Source of the DNA: a virus
DNA length: 44,110 bases
Reading direction: 5' to 3' (one strand)
IMG/VR virus record: IMGVR_UViG_3300048691_000037
Span: 1-44,110 of that record
Shown: one piece after another, positions 12,076-41,337 of the stretch
How positions within the stretch are numbered: position 1 is the first letter of the stretch
Layout of the letters: each line of letters begins with the position of its first letter
Program-made: the position numbers and the translations under genes
The notes under the pieces: generated by a model
Databases searched by the model: none
What the model was told of the DNA's origin: nothing
What the model saw: only the letters and a program-made list of their open reading frames with translations

Positions 12076-13449
12076 TTATTCATCGCCTTCCTCATTGTTT
12101 TCCTGTTCAATCAATCTATTATTAACATCTTCATCTGATTCTTCATTTTTTTGTTGGAATTGAACCATATTAGCTTCTTTTTCTTCTTTTACACGCTCTT
12201 TCTCTTGTTCTGGGTCTATTATATCTCTTAATAGTTCCAGAACGCTTTCTTTTGATATTAAATTAGCTACTTTATTAGCTAGGTCTGCTTGTTCTTGTAA
12301 GTTATCTATAGTATTACGAGTAAACTTAATGCTAACATCTTGTATTATATCTATAGGCTCACTAGAAGTTATGTTAATGATATTGCATATTAATTCTATA
12401 CGTCTTAATAAACCTTTCTTAAATAGTGCTTCTTTAGTAGCTGCTTTATAGTTTAATCCAGCTAGTTTATATTGCATAGCTACACCTGAAGCATTTGATG
12501 CGAAGTTTTCATCACTCATGTTTGGTACAAAGCTAAACTTATGTATATCATTATCTAATCTATTCTTATAATTTTCAGTAGCAGAATCATTTATGTTTTT
12601 AGTAACAAATTCAACATTTCCATCTGGGTCTGGGAAGTTAAATACTTTTAATTCTTTTAATTGTTGAGCCATCTCTGGGTCTAAAGATGCACCTACCACT
12701 TTTAAATAACAATCTGTGAAGCTTTCAAAATCATTAGCTGTATCTGATTGTGCTTGGTCATATGCATTAATTAAATCTATTACTGGCTCAAAGTCTCCCA
12801 TTTTAGAATCATTGTTATCATACACTATAAATGGAACATCACCAAATGGATGTAATTCTACAGATTCAGCTTCTCCATAACAAGTATGTCCTTCGTATGA
12901 ATATCTTTCAACTCTGTCTTTATAATAAACTTCCACATATGTTATAGTTTTATCTTCAACTATATCTTCTTCATCCCAATGTCTTATAACTGTATGTATA
13001 TCACCTATTACATCAGGTTGTCTTATTACTATAATTTCAGTTACATCTACTGGTGCAAATCTTATGTCGCTATTTTCATCCATAAATAGCATTTCAACTG
13101 CTTGTCCGAATATTGAACAGTCTGTAGCTAATTTCATATTAACTGCGGATTCATCATTATATTTATAAATATCATCAAAAATAGGCCCATATTCATCAGG
13201 AAAAGTATAGCCTATAGGTTTACCCATAAAGTATCCAACTGAAGCAGTGACGATATAGTTTGCATAGCTGTGGGCGATTTTATTATTAGGTGCTGATGGG
13301 TCAGCTTTAACTCTGTTTCTAATAGCATTTCTAGTATCATACATAGCTTGTAAATCTCTATAATGTGAAATGTATAGTTTATGGTTATCTATTAATTTTT
13401 GTATCTCATAAATACTAAAATCTTTTTGCGTTCTTTTAATATCTAACAT
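12076..13449 (-). CDS. Portal protein (SPP1/TP901 type)
   Basis: This 457-aa protein should form the dodecameric DNA channel at one capsid vertex and dock the terminase. The start is ATG at 13449 behind AAAGGAGATTACA; longer in-frame starts upstream would run into the terminase gene. SPP1-family features include the HYRDLQAMYDTRNAIRN region, IAHSYANYIVTASVGYFMGKP, a central VPFIVYDN segment and the C-terminal ASGVAMQYKLAGL helix. The acidic C-terminal tail is rich in E and N. Confidence 0.88.
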   Translation of the reverse strand: MLDIKRTQKDFSIYEIQKLIDNHKLYISHYRDLQAMYDTRNAIRNRVKADPSAPNNKIAHSYANYIVTASVGYFMGKPIGYTFPDEYGPIFDDIYKYNDESAVNMKLATDCSIFGQAVEMLFMDENSDIRFAPVDVTEIIVIRQPDVIGDIHTVIRHWDEEDIVEDKTITYVEVYYKDRVERYSYEGHTCYGEAESVELHPFGDVPFIVYDNNDSKMGDFEPVIDLINAYDQAQSDTANDFESFTDCYLKVVGASLDPEMAQQLKELKVFNFPDPDGNVEFVTKNINDSATENYKNRLDNDIHKFSFVPNMSDENFASNASGVAMQYKLAGLNYKAATKEALFKKGLLRRIELICNIINITSSEPIDIIQDVSIKFTRNTIDNLQEQADLANKVANLISKESVLELLRDIIDPEQEKERVKEEKEANMVQFQQKNEESDEDVNNRLIEQENNEEGDE

Positions 13450-13462
13450 TGTAATCTCCTTT

Positions 13463-14728
13463 CTATATGTTATAGAAACTCTTATCTGTAATATATAAGT
13501 CTTTCTTCTTGATACGCTCCATCCCATAGCGTAGGGAATCGAGCAAATGATTGTAATCATCTATAGGTTTATTTATCATTACTCCGTCCTTAGTATCCCA
13601 TACATAATTTGATAATTCTAATAAGGTATTCTCACACTTAGGATGAACTATTATTTTATAGTCTTGTATAAGTTGAATACCATTAAGTATAGAATCTTTT
13701 CCTTTTGCCGCACCTTTAATCCTCATTACTCCCGCTCGTTTTATCTCCTCAATAGACTTTGGCTCACTAGAATCAGCTATAATAACTTCTTTAGCATACC
13801 CTTTGTATTTAATCATTGCTGCAATTTCACTATTTGTCATTGCTTTCTCATAATGTTCATCGAATATATATAATTCTTTAGTATCTTGGTCTACTAATGC
13901 ACATATGAAAGCTGTAGGGTCATTTGTGTATCCAAAGTCAAGTCCGAATATGGATGTTACACTCTTTCTTTTGCTTATCTCTTGATAGTCAAACTCTCTC
14001 TCTACGAAATCTTCATACACTAATCCTTCTGCTATTCCCCACTCACCTAAGCCTTCTATTGCATATCTACGTGGGTTTCTTACTTTCATAGACTCAAATA
14101 AGGCTATATCATCAGGACCCAGCCACTCATTTGTTTTATAAGTAGTTGTTAAAGCTAATGTATTTTCATCTGGATTATCATAAAACCTTTTCTTTATCCA
14201 ATGTTTCTCCGACCACGGGTTAAACGTCATTATAATCTGCTTATAATAGCCTTCAGGTAATTCTCCCCTTATTGACATATCTATTTTATTGAAACTATCT
14301 TCATCTGCTATCTGGAAAAATTCTTCAAACCAACAGAAACATATATAACCTTTTTCTACTGTTATAGATGTGATACTCATTGGATCATCCGTCCCTCTAA
14401 ACAGTATCTTTTGCCCTGTAGGTATATATGTGGCTTCCAATGGACTCAAGGAAAACTTCCATAAATGACGTACGCCTAAATTATTTACCGCCCATTTTAA
14501 TTGTGCAAAGGTACTATCCTTATGTGTGTTAAATACCCTTCTAATAACAAGTGTATTAGCTAATGGATATTGCATCATCTTATATATGATTTTCATAGCC
14601 GCAGTACATGATTTCTTACTCCCTCTGGAACCTTTAACTAGTAGTCAAAGATAACGATGCTTAGATAGCCAGAAGTCTTTATATCCTGCACCTATTTTAT
14701 CTGCTATATTAATTTTATTCATCGTCAT
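13463..14728 (-). CDS. terL: Terminase large subunit, interrupted by an in-frame TGA at codon 28
   Basis: This is the packaging motor ATPase and nuclease. From ATG 14728 (behind AGGAAGGTGGTGG) the frame would give 421 aa. Visible motifs are a variant Walker A GSRGSKKS (33-40), a Walker B-like ICFCWFEEF (E135/E136), the coupling motif MTFNPWSEKHW, and nuclease acids D264 (GLDFGYTNDP), D319 (IIADSSEP) and D397 (HLLDSLRYG). Codon 28 (14645-14647) is TGA, five codons before Walker A; context RYL-TGA-LLVKGSR. No ATG, GTG or TTG lies in frame between this TGA and the ATPase motif, and the first later ATG (14596) would give a protein without Walker A. Either the TGA is read through, or the copy is defective, or there is a base error. 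Confidence 0.85.
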
Positions 14729-14745
14729 TATTGACCACCACCTTC

Positions 14746-15177
14746 CTAGTCTTTAATATCATCTTCCCCTGTAAATATAACCTGAGCCACGTTAGCATTA
14801 ACGTCATGTTCTTGTCTATCCTTCCACTTATCATACGCTCTATTTTTAAGCCAGAATATCATACTCGTTGTATTTGGTTTAGCATACTTAGTTACTTCTA
14901 CTACTTCTCCACTCTTAGTTAATTCTTGTTCCGTGTAGTAGTACCCACAAGCTGATTTAAATAATGCATTCTCAACTTCATATACTGCATCTTGATTGCC
15001 ACGTCTTAATGCTTCATCAAGTTCTGGATGTTGATTTTTATAATTACACAACGTTGATAGTGCTATTCCAAGATAATCTGCTATTTCATCAAGTGTATGA
15101 CCTTCACGATACATACCTTCGATTGTAGATAATTTTGGTTTAACTTGCGATTCATATAAACTTTTTCTACCTGCCAT
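14746..15177 (-). CDS. terS: Terminase small subunit
   Basis: This 143-aa protein recognises the packaging site and regulates the large subunit. The start MAGRKSLYE at 15177 follows AAGGTGATGAA; an upstream in-frame ATG at 15195 is less well placed. Residues 25-50 form a helix-turn-helix (GHTLDEIADYLGIALSTLCNYKNQHPE). Later comes a KPNTTSMIFWLKNRAYDKWKD segment common in Firmicutes TerS proteins. It lies 17 bp upstream of the large subunit. Confidence 0.85.
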   Translation of the reverse strand: MAGRKSLYESQVKPKLSTIEGMYREGHTLDEIADYLGIALSTLCNYKNQHPELDEALRRGNQDAVYEVENALFKSACGYYYTEQELTKSGEVVEVTKYAKPNTTSMIFWLKNRAYDKWKDRQEHDVNANVAQVIFTGEDDIKD

Positions 15178-15274
15178 TTCATCACCTTCTTCCATTTTTA
15201 AGCTCTATTTATTCTAATTAAAAGCTGTATAGCTTGATTTTACCGTTCTTCTAATACATCTTCATCATTGTCGC

Positions 15275-16350: not shown

Positions 16351-16860
16351 TTAGTTAATATATTCTAAGTGGTATCCTTTTACTGTTTTTCTTTTGCCTT
16401 GGCAACAAAGACTTATGAATTGATAACAACACCCAAAGTATTCAGCCGCTGCTTTAGATGTATAGAAAACCATATCTAATTCAATACAATATATTCTTTT
16501 GTTTTTAGTACTTCTTCTAGTTTGTAGTGCATTTTTTGTTCTCTCGCCATATATGTTATTGCTTCTAACAGTGACCCATTCTAAATTAGTCCATACATTA
16601 TTTGTTTTATCTTCATCTATGTGATTTACTACTAATCCTTCATCATATCCATCCACAAATGCTTTTGCAACCAATCTGTGAACCAAGTGATGTTTTCTTT
16701 TGCCGTTCTTACATAGACTTACTTCTAAATAATCATTACCGCTTATAAATGTAGGTGTAAGAAAACGTTCTCCTCTACCTTTTAAAGATTTAACTCTTCC
16801 TAAGTTACTAACTTGATAATCTCCATCATAACCTTCTATATCTCTCCATATTTCTTCCAT
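16351..16860 (-). CDS. HNH homing endonuclease with NUMOD4 (and NUMOD1-like) domain
   Basis: This is a 169-aa free-standing homing nuclease. The NUMOD4 motif is at the N-terminus (EIWRDIEGYDGDYQVSNLGRVK), followed by an HNH_3 core (LVHRLVAKAFV, then VVNHIDEDKTNN and NLEWVT) and a C-terminal DNA-binding module (KNKRIYCIE... SKAAAEYFGC...ISLCCQGKRKT). All expected His and Asn residues are present. It probably arrived as a mobile gene between its neighbours. Confidence 0.88.
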   Translation of the reverse strand: MEEIWRDIEGYDGDYQVSNLGRVKSLKGRGERFLTPTFISGNDYLEVSLCKNGKRKHHLVHRLVAKAFVDGYDEGLVVNHIDEDKTNNVWTNLEWVTVRSNNIYGERTKNALQTRRSTKNKRIYCIELDMVFYTSKAAAEYFGCCYQFISLCCQGKRKTVKGYHLEYIN

Positions 16861-19401: not shown

Positions 19402-19857
19402 CTATGCTATCTTTTTATGTGCGCCATTTTTAGCTTTATATAATTTTGTTCTTTTATATTTCTTAAATGTTTTATAATCATCAGTAGTAGCTTTCTTTCC
19501 ATAATGCTGATGGAATTCCATATGTAATCCGTGAAGTATTACTGCTCCTTGTACATCTTTATGCATCTCTTTAATCTCTTGTATCAGTAAATCTATTTCC
19601 CCTGGATTGTATTCTGTTATGTATTTATGATATTTTATATCTAACTTCTTATGTGCTTTATGCATTATAGAATCAAATGCATTATTCATATGATGTACAT
19701 CTAAAGGATTCTTTTGTGATGATTTTGAGCCTGTTATTTCACATTTATATCCAGCCTTTCTAAGGCATTCTTTCTTCCATTCTTCTGAACCATGTATTCT
19801 TAGATATTTTTTTGTTTCCCTGTTAAGCATTGCCTTCATATTGTTTATACTTGCCAT
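19402..19857 (-). CDS. HNH-like endonuclease
   Basis: This 151-aa basic protein has a degenerate HNH layout: YKCEITGSKS, then NPLDVHHMNNAF, and after a helical insert VILHGLHMEFHQHYGKKAT. The paired His (VHHM), the Asn and the final LH..FH..YG motif are characteristic of phage HNH proteins. A basic C-terminus (KKYKRTKLYKAKNG) could bind DNA. The gene follows the small-RNA-like unit; the start is behind GGTGAATTAGAG. Confidence 0.65.
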   Translation of the reverse strand: MASINNMKAMLNRETKKYLRIHGSEEWKKECLRKAGYKCEITGSKSSQKNPLDVHHMNNAFDSIMHKAHKKLDIKYHKYITEYNPGEIDLLIQEIKEMHKDVQGAVILHGLHMEFHQHYGKKATTDDYKTFKKYKRTKLYKAKNGAHKKIA

Positions 19858-20739: not shown

Positions 20740-21426
20740 CTAACAAACTATTTTTAATGGTTTAGGACCATTTCTTAATAATTGTTTTATTTCTTCTGGT
20801 ACTTGTGGTTTAGGTAAGTCTTTAATATATTTCCATTTTAGTTTAGTACCATCAGGTAGTTTACCTGCTGATTTTTGTTTACCTAAACAAGCTTGTGAAA
20901 TAGATTGAAAAGAAACACCAGTTATTCTTTCAGCTTCTCTTACACCGTAAAAAACTTGTTTTGTAGTTAAACAAATTATTGTTTTAGAGGTAGGACTTTT
21001 ACTTCCAGTTCTACCATACATAGGACAACTTTCACCAGTTCTGCCATACATAGGACCAAGTTTACCTTTGTGAGATTCACTTATTTTTCGTCTCCATTCT
21101 TCAGTTCGTTCACAACCACTATTTCCACCTTCGCCGCCTGTAGAACTATTGTAGCCATTCTCACGATTAGTAGTATCGTAAAATGCTATAAAATATTGTT
21201 CAAACAAGCATGCCTCATTTTTAGTTAAATCATCAGCAAGAATCACATGTATAATATTATCCCAACCATATTTATTAATAGCTCTCCAAAAATATGGATG
21301 TTTCTTATAGCCTTTACCATTAGACCAACGTGCTTCAGGTTTTTGACTTGTTATTCCAAAATATTTTTTACCACTTGGTGATATGTGTAAGTAAAGTACA
21401 TATTTTTTTTCATTAGTTCCGCTCAT
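20740..21426 (-). CDS. GIY-YIG homing endonuclease with NUMOD3 and NUMOD1 motifs
   Basis: This 228-aa protein has an N-terminal GIY-YIG domain in variant form (YVLYLHISPSGKKYFGIT, then RWSNGKGYKKHPYFWRAI and E-x-CLFEQYFI), with the catalytic Arg and Glu present. NUMOD3 repeats follow (HKGKLGPMYGRTGE, CPMYGRTGSKSP), then a NUMOD1 helix-turn-helix (VFYGVREAERITGVSFQSISQACLG). The preferred start is ATG 21426, since the upstream ATG lies too close to the GGGGG site. It is wedged between the primase and the 20425 gene. Confidence 0.88.
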   Translation of the reverse strand: MSGTNEKKYVLYLHISPSGKKYFGITSQKPEARWSNGKGYKKHPYFWRAINKYGWDNIIHVILADDLTKNEACLFEQYFIAFYDTTNRENGYNSSTGGEGGNSGCERTEEWRRKISESHKGKLGPMYGRTGESCPMYGRTGSKSPTSKTIICLTTKQVFYGVREAERITGVSFQSISQACLGKQKSAGKLPDGTKLKWKYIKDLPKPQVPEEIKQLLRNGPKPLKIVC

Positions 21427-21442
21427 TTTTACCATCCCCCTA

Positions 21443-23362: not shown

Positions 23363-23413
23363 AATTACCATTCTCCTTTAAAATTAAATTTGTTGTATAT
23401 ATATTTTTTATTT

Positions 23414-23703
23414 GGTAAGAATAATCTTAACTAGAATATGCGGTATAAGATACCTCCGTGTCAACGTTCCCTGTAATGTCTTACCTTAATCCTAAAATCT
23501 CTCTGTGGATTATGGCGAGATTGCAATTATATATGATTCGGAATCTCTGGATTCATTAGCTACTCTTACTTCCATCGTTGACTTTCACTAGGCCCAATGC
23601 CCGTCCCTCAGTCTAGGTTTCATTTGTTCTAAGCAATCACTGTTCTATTCATATAATGTTTTGCTAGGTCCCTCGCTTTTAGAACCAAGGCTCACAGTGG
23701 ATT
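23414..23703 (-). ncRNA. Structured RNA candidate upstream of the primase (leader element or ncRNA)
   Basis: This ~290-nt stretch has clearly more G/C than its surroundings and many complementary segments: 23694-23703 with 23635-23643; 23541-23545 with 23550-23554 (tetraloop); 23507-23512 with 23487-23492; 23479-23485 with 23414-23420 enclosing the 23442-23454 hairpin. Several nest as expected for one folded RNA. Within the AT-rich genome this is typical of a structural RNA. No riboswitch, intron core or tRNA was recognised. Confidence 0.45.
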
Positions 23704-23980
23704 GTTGTTTCTCTATTCTAATTCTTTATTACCTCTTACATTTATAATATATACATGTGATATGTACTTGTTCGTTATTTTTGGGATTATTTTAAATTTA
23801 TTTTTGATAGACATTAGTATTATCAATGACTGTAGCCTATTTAAATCTCTAAATGTCCCTTACATCTATTAATATATTACTCATGGGAATATCTGTATTG
23901 CATATTGTAATAAAAATTTATAAGAATTGTATAAATCCAGCGTGATTTTGGGGAATTATTGATGTGAAAATGGGCTAAGA

Positions 23981-24115
23981 ATGGCTTGATTTCAATAGGT
24001 TGAGTGTTGTCCAAAATCCCGCTAACCGTTAAATAATACATTATTATATATGTATTTATTATCGGTCAGCGGAGCTTCAAACAATAGATAAATGGCTTGG
24101 TTCCAATGGGTTGAC
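23981..24115. repeat. Direct repeat pair flanking the palindrome
   Basis: 23981-24004 and 24092-24115 share 20 of 24 bases. Three of the four differences are transitions, and two of these compensate: TTGA-TT-TCAA in one copy and TTGG-TT-CCAA in the other, so each copy keeps its own small dyad. The palindrome lies between them, 14 and 19 bp away. Confidence 0.65.
24019..24072. repeat. 54-bp palindrome, copy 2 (shares a 22-bp core with 7116-7155)
   Basis: The outer arms begin CCGCTAACCG and end CGGTCAGCGG, pairing with one G-T; inner AT arms pair with three mismatches. The 22 bp at 24035-24056 match 7125-7146 exactly, while the outer arms of the two copies are unrelated in sequence but still self-complementary. 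Confidence 0.8.
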
Positions 24116-24201
24116 GTATCTTTCCTCATATAAATTTCCCATCTTTGAAGATACGCTTGTCTAATAATAATAGTAATACTGCATTAACTTTTAAATCCTT
24201 T

Positions 24202-24230
24202 ATAATAGTAAATCGTACAACCAATAACAA
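24202..24230 (-). promoter_or_regulatory. Promoter-like sequence for the primase leader
   Basis: On the minus strand TTGTTA, 17 bp, TATTAT (4/6 and 5/6 matches to the vegetative consensus). Transcription would start near 24195, giving a leader of about 830 nt before the primase start. Confidence 0.4.
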
Positions 24231-24299
24231 TCAATACTACTTGGATTCACGGTGGTATTAGCGTAAATGATATATTGGTCTAAGCTATGCTAACCCATG

Positions 24300-28364: not shown

Positions 28365-28435
28365 AGTTTGTGTCCTACATATTTGAGCATATCGGCTTCG
28401 TCAACTCGAAGAGAACATAGGCTTTGTAGGATCAT
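28358..28435 (-). CDS. Possible 25-aa micro-ORF
   Basis: ATG at 28435 opens MILQSLCSLRVDEADMLKYV and runs to TAG inside the terminator stem. Composition looks protein-like but the ribosome site (GAAAG) is weak, and TCCTACA/TGTAGGA also makes this stretch a hairpin, so it may be RNA structure instead. Confidence 0.25.
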   Translation of the reverse strand: MILQSLCSLRVDEADMLKYVGHKLD

Positions 28436-28458
28436 TAATGAGCTTTCTTTATTTTTAG

Positions 28459-28533
28459 TTAGTCACGCTCTATGACTAAATCAACAATTGAACTTTTTTT
28501 CTGCTCGCGTTCTACGAGCAATTTTCTTATCAT
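28459..28533 (-). CDS. Possible 24-aa micro-ORF overlapping a hairpin pair
   Basis: ATG at 28533 opens MIRKLLVEREQ and ends LVIERD-stop. There is no Shine-Dalgarno site. The same bases form two hairpins with nearly equal loops (TAGAACG at 28501-28517, TAGAGCG at 28459-28479). Coding status is doubtful. Confidence 0.2.
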   Translation of the reverse strand: MIRKLLVEREQKKSSIVDLVIERD

Positions 28534-28733: not shown

Positions 28734-29717
28734 CTATGCTAGTGTCCATCCTTTGTTTGTCGCTATTGCTTTTTCTTCATTTGTTAGTTTCGCTAGATTA
28801 GTTGTACCTAATGTTAACTTAGTTGTTCTTGTTACTGTGGCTAGATTATTAATAATACTCATTAATGAATCGTGTGTTAAATTAGTACACGTATTAAAAT
28901 TAAAAGCCGCATTGATATTCTTAGGTGCTTTAAAGTCTGTTAATGCTTTACAACCATTAAATGCACTAGTAACAGAAGTAACCTTGCCGACATCCCAACC
29001 GCTTAAATCTAACGATGTTAAAGTACAACTAGCGAATATATTCCCCATACTAGTTACTTTACTAGTGTCCCAATTACTTACATCTAATGATGTTAAACCA
29101 GTACAAGAACCAAACATATATTGCATATTAGTTACATTGCTAGTATCAAAATTACTTAAGTCTAATGATGTTAGACCGGCACAAAGGTAAAACATATATT
29201 GCATATCTTTAACATTACTAGTATCAAAATTACTTAAGTCTAATGTTGTTAGACCGGCACAACCACGAAACATATATTCCATATTAGTTACATTGCTTGT
29301 ATCGAAACTGCTTACATTTAATGATGTTAAAGTACTGCAACCATGGAACATATAACTCATATTCGTCACATTACTAGTGTCCCAACTACTTAAGTTTAGT
29401 TTTCTTAAAAGCATACAACTATAGAACATATACTTCATATCTTTAGCTTGGCTGGTATCAAAATTACTTAAGTCTAATGACATTAAGTTAGAACCATAAA
29501 ATAAATAAGAATAATCAGTGCTATAATTTGTTGATACATTCCACCAATATTCATAATAAGCATTGTCTCCACCACTATTGGATTCAATAGCATTTATTTT
29601 AGAAGGATAATCGGCGAAAACAGTATCCTCTGGAACTTCAACACCTTTACCTATAATAGCTTGACGTATAGCGGTCTTAGTCTGTAGAAGCTTGTTAATT
29701 TTATTAACAACGCCCAT
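28734..29717 (-). CDS. BspA/DUF285-type LRR tail protein, cassette 3
   Basis: This 327-aa protein begins with a phage tail-fibre adaptor ([20 protein letters not shown], then VFADYPSKI) and then seven 26-residue repeats of the form LTSLDLSNFDTSNVTNMxYMF-x-x-C, with a C-terminal cap (from about 245). These DUF285/BspA repeats are usually in adhesins of Mollicutes and gut bacteria; here they probably bind the receptor. The start overlaps the BppU-like gene stop as TAATG. Confidence 0.75.
   Translation of the reverse strand: MGVVNKINKLLQTKTAIRQAIIGKGVEVPEDTVFADYPSKINAIESNSGGDNAYYEYWWNVSTNYSTDYSYLFYGSNLMSLDLSNFDTSQAKDMKYMFYSCMLLRKLNLSSWDTSNVTNMSYMFHGCSTLTSLNVSSFDTSNVTNMEYMFRGCAGLTTLDLSNFDTSNVKDMQYMFYLCAGLTSLDLSNFDTSNVTNMQYMFGSCTGLTSLDVSNWDTSKVTSMGNIFASCTLTSLDLSGWDVGKVTSVTSAFNGCKALTDFKAPKNINAAFNFNTCTNLTHDSLMSIINNLATVTRTTKLTLGTTNLAKLTNEEKAIATNKGWTLA
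29030..29480 (-). repeat. 78-bp coding repeats of the LRR domain
   Basis: Near-identical blocks such as TATCAAAATTACTTAAGTC recur every 78 bp (26 codons), e.g. at about 29147 and 29225. The high DNA identity compared with the older LRR genes suggests recent expansion or gene conversion. Confidence 0.8.
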
Positions 29718-30922: not shown

Positions 30923-32128
30923 TTATTTAACATTAACAAATTCCCAACCGTCTGGTGCTGTTAGTTTGCCCACATTTTCTTCTAAGCAGTAAATCTTACG
31001 TGTTTCACCCCAATTATCTTCTGCTTCACCAGTTGGGAAACTAAATGACTCAATAATCTTTCTAATAGTATCTTCATTACAGTTGTCTAGTCTTAACGTG
31101 TGAAGTCTTCTGCAATTATTTAACATCCATTCAGTATTACAGTCTTCTCTTATCTCGAAGCTACTTAAATTTAATTCTTTTAAGTTTTCGCATTCAGAGA
31201 ACATATCATACATGCTCTCAACATTACTAGTGTTAAAGCTGCTTAGGTCTAATGATTCAAGACTTCTACAACTATAAAACATATTATTCATAGTAGTTAC
31301 ATTACTAGTATCCCATTCGTTGATACCATTAATAGTTCTTAAGTTTTCACAATTAGAGAACATATCACTTAAGTTATCATGTTCTTTTGTTACCATAACA
31401 TTAACTTCTTCAATGTCTCTGTTATCACGGAACATATCAGGTTGGTATAGTGGTATTTCTTCTTTTGGAGCAATAACTTCACCAGTAAAACAGTCAACAA
31501 ACTCCCATCCATCAGGAGCTGTTAAATCAGCTGCATATTTTGGCGATACCCACATTTTTCTTGTTACTTCAATTCCTTTCTTATCAATCCATACTAAACC
31601 AGTTGGGAAACCATATGCAGTTATTACTTTCTCAAGGTTATAATTTTCACAATTGTCTAATCTTAAAGTATGTAATGATGAACAGTCTCTTAGCATACTC
31701 GTCATAGACTTTATAACTATTGGGTCGTAATTTCTTATATCTAAGTATTCTAAAGCAGTACAACCATCAAACATATTAGACACGTTAGTAACATTATCAA
31801 AAAACCAATTGCTTAAATCTATCGAAGTTAAGTTTTTACATCCAGAGAACATAAAAGCCATATCAGTCACGTTGCTAGTATTCCAAGTATTAAGATCAAA
31901 ACTTTCTAATGAATCACCTAAATAACCGTAAAATAAATATCTATAATAAGTATGATTACTAGTTCTTAATGAAATGTAATCAGGTCCGCTTATTTCTACT
32001 ATTTTATTAGGATAATCAGCGAAGACTACATCTTCTCCAACCTCTACACCTTTGTCAATGATAGCTTTTTTAATGGCCGCTTTTGTTTCTAGAAGTTTGT
32101 TAAGTTTGTCAGTAGTAGTACCCATCAT
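30923..32128 (-). CDS. BspA/DUF285-type LRR tail protein, cassette 2 (internally duplicated)
   Basis: This 401-aa protein has the same adaptor start as cassette 3 (KLNKLLETKAAIKKAI, VFADYPNKI), then two related halves. Each half has LRR repeats, then LHTLRLDNC, a SFPTG or GFPTG motif and an ending DGWEFV (once at ~215, once at the C-terminus). The joint (about 215-245, FTGEVIAPKEEIPLYQPDMF) is unlike the repeats. The start ATG overlaps the upstream TGA. Confidence 0.75.
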   Translation of the reverse strand: MMGTTTDKLNKLLETKAAIKKAIIDKGVEVGEDVVFADYPNKIVEISGPDYISLRTSNHTYYRYLFYGYLGDSLESFDLNTWNTSNVTDMAFMFSGCKNLTSIDLSNWFFDNVTNVSNMFDGCTALEYLDIRNYDPIVIKSMTSMLRDCSSLHTLRLDNCENYNLEKVITAYGFPTGLVWIDKKGIEVTRKMWVSPKYAADLTAPDGWEFVDCFTGEVIAPKEEIPLYQPDMFRDNRDIEEVNVMVTKEHDNLSDMFSNCENLRTINGINEWDTSNVTTMNNMFYSCRSLESLDLSSFNTSNVESMYDMFSECENLKELNLSSFEIREDCNTEWMLNNCRRLHTLRLDNCNEDTIRKIIESFSFPTGEAEDNWGETRKIYCLEENVGKLTAPDGWEFVNVK

Positions 32129-32820: not shown

Positions 32821-34197
32821 CTAGTCTACATATTCAAATTGCCAGTTTTCAGGAGGTGTTAATAAACCTTCATAATCTCGTTTTACGTATATTTTACGTA
32901 TTACACCACTAATTGAACGAGTTGGAAAGTATTGTGATGTTATAATTTTATTAATTGTATCAATATCACAGTTATTAAGTTTTAATGTATGAAGTTTGTG
33001 GCATCCAGTAAACATACCTTCTGTATTGGTTACATTATTCATATCAAAATTACTTAAGTTCAATATTTCTAAAGAACTACACATAGTAAACATTCTATAC
33101 ATATTAGTTACATTATTAGTATTAAAATTACTTAAGTCTAATGATGTTAAATTAGTACAATAATTAAACATATTACTCATATCAGTTACTTTATTAGTAT
33201 ACCAGTTACTTAAGTCTAGTGTAGTTAAATTATTACAATTCATAAACATAGAACTCATATCAACTACATTATGAACAGACCATCTACTTATATCTAAAAT
33301 TGTTATGTTACTACATTCAAAAAATATACCATTCATATCAATAACTTTATTTGTATCAAAATTGTTTAATGCTAATGAAGTTAAATTGCTGCAACTAAAA
33401 AACATACTACTCATATCAGTTACATTCTCTGTATTAAAGCTACTTAAGTCTAATGATATTAAGTTCCTACAGTTATCAAACATACCTTTCATAGTAGTTG
33501 CACTACTAGTATTCCAATCATTTAAATTTAATGAAGCTAATGATATACAGTAGCTAAACATATACATCATATCTTCAACACTAGATACATTCCAATTACT
33601 TAAGTCTAATTCAGTTAAAGATTCACAATTATTAAACATATGGCACATACTAGTTACATTCTTAGTACTTAAACCATTTGGAATAAATGTATTTAAAGAG
33701 CTGCAATTATAAAACATATTACTCATATCTGTAATACTAAGTGTATTCCAGCTACTAGTATCAACAGATGTTAAATAACAGCAGTTTTTAAACATATCGA
33801 ACATAGAAATAAAATCAAATGCACCACAATGTTTTACTGTTTTTATAGGTGAACAAGGCTCTGCTTCAAAGAACTCAATTTTAGTAGTAGCTTCTGGGTA
33901 CCAAACTATAACTCTTTTTATGTCTTTACATAAGACCGATGTATCAGTAGTTGTGGAACCATCATTAAGTGTTATTTCAATTTCTGTGAAATAATCATAA
34001 GAGTACCCGTTTTTTGTATGAATGCAAGGTAATCCATAATGTGAATCTAAAGAAGAACGAAGGCTTATGTCTAGAGGTTCAACAGTATATTCTATGCAAA
34101 ATTTACTATAATAAACATAATATCCATTGTATTTTATAGAATGTATTTCTCTATCGTTAAAATGGCCGCCTAAACATATATCTCTGTCTAATCTCAT
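32821..34197 (-). CDS. BspA/DUF285-type LRR tail protein, cassette 1
   Basis: This 458-aa protein is the longest LRR member. It starts with a different N-terminal domain of about 130 residues (CLGGHFNDREIHSIKYNGYYVYYSKF), then ten or eleven 26-residue repeats (LTSLDLSNFNTNNVTNMYRMF type), and a C-terminal cap with LHTLKLNNCD, YFPTRS and PPENWQFEYVD like the cap of cassette 2. Probably a receptor-binding tip. Its start overlaps the upstream TGA. Confidence 0.75.
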   Translation of the reverse strand: MRLDRDICLGGHFNDREIHSIKYNGYYVYYSKFCIEYTVEPLDISLRSSLDSHYGLPCIHTKNGYSYDYFTEIEITLNDGSTTTDTSVLCKDIKRVIVWYPEATTKIEFFEAEPCSPIKTVKHCGAFDFISMFDMFKNCCYLTSVDTSSWNTLSITDMSNMFYNCSSLNTFIPNGLSTKNVTSMCHMFNNCESLTELDLSNWNVSSVEDMMYMFSYCISLASLNLNDWNTSSATTMKGMFDNCRNLISLDLSSFNTENVTDMSSMFFSCSNLTSLALNNFDTNKVIDMNGIFFECSNITILDISRWSVHNVVDMSSMFMNCNNLTTLDLSNWYTNKVTDMSNMFNYCTNLTSLDLSNFNTNNVTNMYRMFTMCSSLEILNLSNFDMNNVTNTEGMFTGCHKLHTLKLNNCDIDTINKIITSQYFPTRSISGVIRKIYVKRDYEGLLTPPENWQFEYVD

Positions 34198-40596: not shown

Positions 40597-41337
40597 CTAA
40601 TCATTTATTTCTACTTCATAATTTATCATTGCATTGTATAATACCTCTGGTATTAAATCTCTATACTCGTCTGCCATATCCTTAATAACTTGTTCTTTAT
40701 ATTGCTTATAAGATTCAAAAGCTTGTTCTGGTGTGTCATAATAGCCTAAATGCACTATATGACCCGAACCATTATTACAAGATACTCTATACTTGTTCTG
40801 GTGATAATTAACACCTATAGGTAGATTACCTCTATCTCTATCACGTTTAGTAAATATACTATTGATACACTTAGGAACAAATACACAAGTGTCTGGAGAA
40901 TACGTTTTATTGCCTTTACATGTTATATCTTTATCAAGAGCCATTGATTGACCTTCAATTTCATAATAATTATCATAATACCATTCAGCGAAGTTTTGGA
41001 AGTTATGCCATTCTTCGCATACTTCACATCCTATATATGTTGGGTTTTTTGATAGGCATTGTGAATCATAACATCTTCTAATCATACCCCTCCATGCTTC
41101 GTAACTATCTTTATTATCTTTATAGTTATAATCACCTTGTCCGATATAACCTATATCATAAATAGATGCATGATTTGGATTTTTAATAGCACCTTTTTTA
41201 AAGTCGCCATATTCTCTATTGGTAACTATAGTTCCATCTTCAAATTGTACGTCGATGTCTTTATTTTTTCTGTATTCTATAATAGCCATCATACATCCTT
41301 GATTGTTTAATGCTTGTTCACCTATTCTATTAACCAA
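40597..41337 (-). CDS. HNH homing endonuclease with AP2 domain
   Basis: This 246-aa protein starts at TTG 41337. An HNH region has CEEWHNFQNFAEWYYDNY, SMALDKDI, NKTYSPDTCVFVP and IN-x-x-F. An AP2 DNA-binding domain follows (LPIGVNYHQNKYRVSCNNG, GYYDTPEQAFESYKQYKE). It interrupts the otherwise tight tail operon and has its own terminator, as typical for mobile homing nucleases. Confidence 0.85.
   Translation of the reverse strand: MVNRIGEQALNNQGCMMAIIEYRKNKDIDVQFEDGTIVTNREYGDFKKGAIKNPNHASIYDIGYIGQGDYNYKDNKDSYEAWRGMIRRCYDSQCLSKNPTYIGCEVCEEWHNFQNFAEWYYDNYYEIEGQSMALDKDITCKGNKTYSPDTCVFVPKCINSIFTKRDRDRGNLPIGVNYHQNKYRVSCNNGSGHIVHLGYYDTPEQAFESYKQYKEQVIKDMADEYRDLIPEVLYNAMINYEVEIND

Follow-up and report, generated by a model that had tools for sequence, protein, structure and literature searches.

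A UGA codon within a probable two-codon insertion interrupts the large terminase gene of a circular phage genome

We confirmed an in-frame stop codon in the large terminase (TerL) gene of a phage genome represented by a metagenomic record; the window analysed here is this whole stretch of 44,110 nucleotides. The interpretation that we favour, and consider reasonably probable, is that a recent 6-nucleotide insertion broke the gene. A replicating strand would briefly have copied its own nearby sequence (a template switch), adding two codons that bring a UGA into the beta-strand just ahead of the P-loop. Only a 27-residue peptide would then be made, leaving no working ATPase and a genome that could not package itself unless helped, possibly by the terminase of a helper phage or by intact sister phages. 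The features on which this interpretation draws are as follows.

13463 to 14728, minus strand: TerL frame from ATG 14728 to a TAG, interrupted at codon 28 (Pfam and fold matches)
14645 to 14647, minus strand: in-frame UGA with C as the next nucleotide (read from the sequence)
14648 to 14650, minus strand: CUU Leu codon ahead of the stop, the take-off codon if ribosomes hop over the stop (read from the sequence)
14642 to 14644, minus strand: CUA Leu codon after the stop, the landing codon of such a hop, which would leave three residues before KG
14639 to 14650, minus strand: zone of the two extra codons (6 nt), with five codons here versus three residues in 126 relatives
14630 to 14652, minus strand: predicted 10-bp hairpin with a 3-nt loop and arms at 14652-14643 (insertion) and 14639-14630 (next DNA)
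14609 to 14632, minus strand: Walker A motif (P-loop) GSRGSKKS, near-invariant among family members
13463 to 14596, minus strand: longest reinitiation product from a start-codon scan, 377 aa, lacking Walker A
14746 to 15195, minus strand: small terminase gene TerS, intact (PHROG 309, 3.4e-51)
12076 to 13449, minus strand: portal protein gene, intact (SPP1_portal, 2.8e-107; 76% identical to the closest relative, L266)

The interrupted gene is a Terminase_3 large terminase with a Walker A motif, an RNase H-like nuclease domain and overall family similarity. Its post-stop part matches Pfam Terminase_3 (3.6e-46) and Terminase_3C (1.7e-30), and its fold matches are the D6E, Sf6 and SPP1 terminases. 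From ATG 14728 the frame reads MTMNKINIADKIGAGYKDFWLSKHRYL, the stop and LLVKGSRGSKKS, and then remains open as far as the TAG at 13465-13463. The TGA is codon 28, and the first Gly of Walker A is codon 33, five codons later, as the initial annotation of this DNA had described. That annotation was also correct that no usable start lies between the two: the interval contains no ATG, GTG or TTG, and the frame offers its next start only past Walker A, at ATG 14596. Ordinary decoding yields a 27-residue peptide, and reinitiation at ATG 14596 yields at most the 377-aa product. This product lacks Walker A, supporting the earlier claim that reinitiation cannot give an active ATPase.

Our survey of fetched loci yielded 128 distinct Walker A regions, two of which (L049 and L096) are frameshifted just upstream, leaving 126 clean relatives. 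All 126 have a conserved Tyr or Phe, exactly three residues (for example RVV, VPL or IAL) and then Lys-Gly. The window TerL departs from this uninterrupted three-residue arrangement and carries five codons, Leu-stop-Leu-Leu-Val, between the aromatic residue and Lys-Gly. A MAFFT alignment places a two-column gap in every relative at the site, and none of the 126 distinct relatives has a stop there. The comparison of three residues with five codons argues that the stop belongs to the two extra codons, and it very probably lies within a 6-nt insertion rather than resulting from a substitution. The exact placement of the insertion is ambiguous, with equivalent placements within 14643-14650. Substitution of a Trp or other sense codon by TGA is rejected, as the position corresponds to no codon in any relative. 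The two extra codons had escaped the initial annotation, which suggested that the TGA might be read as Trp, being one G-to-A change from TGG, and proposed reading the residue at codon 28 from aligned TerL proteins; no such residue exists in the relatives. An intron at the stop site is also ruled out, given the length of just 6 nt and the lack of any Rfam intron near the gene.

Interrupted terminase genes of another kind occur among the related loci. TerL is present in at least two pieces, separated by hundreds of bases that are probably introns, in L007, L056, L101 and L123. L007 is Bacillus phage Silence, in which TerL is annotated as joined and an HNH endonuclease lies between the pieces. 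The window itself has at least four homing-endonuclease-like genes (16351-16860, 19402-19857, 20740-21435 and 40597-41337), of the types NUMOD4-HNH, HNH, NUMOD3/GIY-YIG and HNH.

We found no strain-level relative of the window by searching for its exact flanks with a gap, by screening viral contigs and genomes for TerL peptides, or by DNA similarity to phages. A degenerate pattern of the insertion had no match, and no matching DNA was found in viral contigs. The closest relative, L266 (L218), has a portal that is 76–79% identical and a TerL C-terminus that is 86% identical, and its contig starts inside TerL and lacks the N-terminus. In L266 (positions 1-1215) a homing-endonuclease-like ORF comes ahead of TerL, an arrangement that would fit an intron or insert splitting the gene near the nuclease motif DFGYTNDP; the upstream TerL terminus lies beyond the contig.

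The CUU, the two CUA codons and the UGA all fall within the predicted hairpin, whose 5' arm contains the stop. On its own it has a predicted energy of -7.0 kcal/mol, and its folding z-score is -2.1 over 35 nt but just -1.1 over 43 nt. The insert pairs with the neighbouring DNA at 10 of 10 pairs by RNA rules and at 7 of 8 inner positions by DNA rules; an inverted-repeat tool based on DNA pairing did not, at its strictness, report the quasipalindrome at 14630-14652. Complementarity of this extent is rare by chance, in that a stem of 10 bp or longer would form with just 12 of the 4096 possible 6-nt inserts at this point of TerL. Stems of at least 10 bp have 27 entries across the whole 44-kb coding strand. 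The hairpin is not unique by itself, and what counts is its coincidence with a private insertion.

Template switching at quasipalindromes is an established path to more perfect palindromes and hairpins (PMC7202029, PMC8794818). We infer that the insertion most likely arose in this way. In the Ripley model of quasipalindrome mutation and at the E. coli thyA hotspot (PMC7202029, PMC8794818), as in the window, a small insertion extends complementarity and makes a hairpin. The window differs from these cases in two respects. One of the six inserted bases does not fit a perfect template-switch copy, so that a copying error or later substitution is needed, and the ancestral sequence is approached only through relatives of at most 77% identity.

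The rest of the gene is undecayed. Among 107 near-invariant TerL columns, two are altered in the window, both conservatively (L8I and F183Y), against a median of one across 53 sequences, and the mean identity of the window TerL to other TerLs is ordinary. In tblastn searches with the proteins of six relatives, TerL was the only sense-strand window gene with a stop inside the alignment, once stops just ahead of start codons were set aside. The collinear relative L266 (18.9 kb) matches intact window genes at 60–88% identity from the portal to the tape measure, except in the repetitive tape-measure end, which falls below this range. With TerL undecayed and no other sense-strand gene carrying an alignment stop, the lesion is of recent date or else does no harm. 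The private site, with no matching DNA in viral contigs, is as expected for a young lesion. The intact remainder of TerL and of the comparable head and tail genes would fit a working gene equally well.

Broken terminase frames make up a few percent of the related records. Among approximately 154–155 near-full relatives there are about five: L167, L011 and L237 have an internal stop or frameshift, and L049 and L096 have the frameshift just before Walker A. The interruption in L167, a metagenomic record, is an in-frame TAG at 2332-2334 in the TerL nuclease domain, which may reflect either a TAG-recoded phage or a lesion.

Direct terminal repeats of 127 bp close the window record into a circle of 43,983 bp; their length of exactly 127 bp probably reflects the k-mer overlap of the assembler. 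The sample therefore probably contained circular or concatemeric extrachromosomal DNA. This weighs against a knock-out, although packaging is not required for such DNA to exist. Defective prophages, and phages whose packaging genes are broken, resemble the window in having an interrupted packaging gene among intact structural genes. The window differs from them in being a circular record rather than an integrated remnant, and in showing a single lesion.

TerS lies just upstream of TerL, and the portal, scaffold and major head protein genes lie downstream. The 3195-codon tape measure gene, whose length in the initial annotation we reproduced, runs across the circle join. The phage is recognisable as temperate by its serine integrase, anti-repressor and amidase. 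Its host is probably a low-GC Firmicute, since the window has a GC content of 31% and its nearest terminases are found in Clostridium caldaquaticum and other Clostridia. We also observed that a region of approximately 900 bp without a long ORF (23372-24299) separates the serine integrase from a gene of 642 aa. Within it, 23380-23760 (minus strand) is more stably folded than most of its shuffled versions (z -2.1), and 24086-24005 forms a strong hairpin with a chance match to a microRNA family. We found no relative of the region among phages, and it is possibly an attachment region or a novel structured RNA. Between the tail-fibre and lysis genes, 28433-28483 (minus strand) matches the Rfam 6A RNA (RF02925) above the gathering score. 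The presumed receptor-binding region encodes three DUF285/BspA-type leucine-rich repeat proteins (28734-29717, 30923-32128 and 32821-34197), two of which flank a BppU/collagen-like protein.

TGA terminates just two other window genes, at 34194 and 32125, in agreement with the initial annotation, and the window contains no tRNA genes. These properties, together with the interruption of TerL only, rule out a phage in which UGA encodes Trp. The earlier exclusion of wholesale recoding holds, with no other sense-strand gene interrupted. TGA avoidance is ruled out as a clue to the host code, given that related phages use TGA about as rarely.

Foremost among the alternatives to a knock-out, though doubtful, is a stop hop. 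Peptidyl-tRNA-Leu would leave CUU at the slow UGA-C in the hairpin and re-pair with CUA 6 nt on, so that nine nucleotides would be decoded as a single Leu, yielding a certain amount of full TerL with exactly the family length. The stronger claim, that a natural in-frame stop hop is the sole route to the packaging motor and supplies TerL of exact family length late or in small amounts, seems to us a little more doubtful again. A stop hop product is two residues shorter than the corresponding readthrough product (PMC5009743), and this shortfall is exactly the window excess. UGA-C is a weak stop (PMC5009743), and TerL and the genome are otherwise intact. With same-box Leu codons on either side of it and a predicted hairpin around it, the stop resembles that at the T4 gene 60 take-off site, which is next to the take-off codon within a stem-loop (PMC11194080). 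The hairpin expected at a bypassing or stop-hop take-off site is present as the predicted 10-bp stem. As in T4 gene 60 bypassing and synthetic stop hops (PMC5009743), the stop directly follows the take-off codon, and same-box re-pairing would restore the product. The window gap is 6 nt as opposed to 50 nt in T4 gene 60, CUU and CUA are not identical although they share a codon box, and the resemblance is sequence-based. A pattern scan and the 126 relatives showed the site to be absent from all relatives and the signal not to be conserved. Stop hops have been demonstrated with synthetic constructs, and a 2016 review was aware of no natural case (PMC5009743). Because one template-switch event would generate the matched Leu codons, the hairpin and the 6-nt length together, these features provide no independent support for function. 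Another terminase gene may similarly need ribosomal nucleotide skipping, in that case linked to UUA rather than to a UGA between same-box Leu codons.

A sequencing or assembly artefact, with the insertion absent from the real phage or present as a minority form, appears unlikely. The window is known from one metagenomic record only, which leaves room for such an error. An in-frame 6-base insertion complementary to its neighbour would be an atypical short-read error, and the frame is intact on either side with no other lesion seen.

We regard as slightly more unlikely a readthrough in which a near-cognate tRNA or a host suppressor decodes the UGA, giving low-level TerL two residues longer than in relatives. 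In its favour, the frame is open before and after the stop, the UGA-C context is leaky and the downstream TerL is undecayed. The leaky context is the one property shared with programmed UGA readthrough; a sense codon in relatives and conservation of the stop are both lacking (0 of 126). With five residues before KG, the readthrough product would stand alone among 127 sequences, its two additional residues falling in the strand that runs into the P-loop. AlphaFold2 confidence falls at exactly this point, to a pLDDT of 61 for the P-loop block 31-40 and below 50 at residues 33-35, compared with 90 in the control relative L138, a drop that is an indication only and not an assay of the effect of the insertion. 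These results, and the absence of a window tRNA, count against the earlier proposal that the UGA is read as Trp.

The probability outside knock-out, hop, readthrough and artefact falls to other readings. One of these is an RF2-type +1 frameshift at CUUUGAC, which is highly improbable. The local sequence UAU CUU UGA CUA C is similar to that of the bacterial RF2 gene, prfB, and contains UAUCUUUGACUAC, which we take to be the core of the prfB shift site of E. coli. CUU-UGA-C has been described as the prfB shift site (PMC5009743), matching the window. Unlike prfB, the window has no Shine-Dalgarno-like stimulator just upstream and no open +1 frame, and the post-stop TerL frame is the zero frame. 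The +1 frame past CUUUGAC closes after two codons (GAC UAC UAG) and the -1 frame closes at UAA, which rules out either shift as a way of making TerL.

Since the site is not conserved, we consider a knock-out of recent date the likeliest explanation, and the defective copy that the initial annotation offered as its fallback is the likeliest outcome. Fixed family length in 126 relatives, an insert complementary to adjacent DNA, a private site, an otherwise unspoiled gene and the frequency of broken terminase frames in related records are all consistent with it.

If a stop hop were real, it would be the first natural in-frame case, unknown to the 2016 review and mistakable for readthrough (PMC5009743); the junction peptides predicted by hop and readthrough are two residues apart. 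If the knock-out is real, the window would provide a clean case of a circular phage genome, complete in other respects, whose packaging gene was broken by a template switch. It would also caution against taking every stop in a metagenomic phage gene as a sign of recoding.
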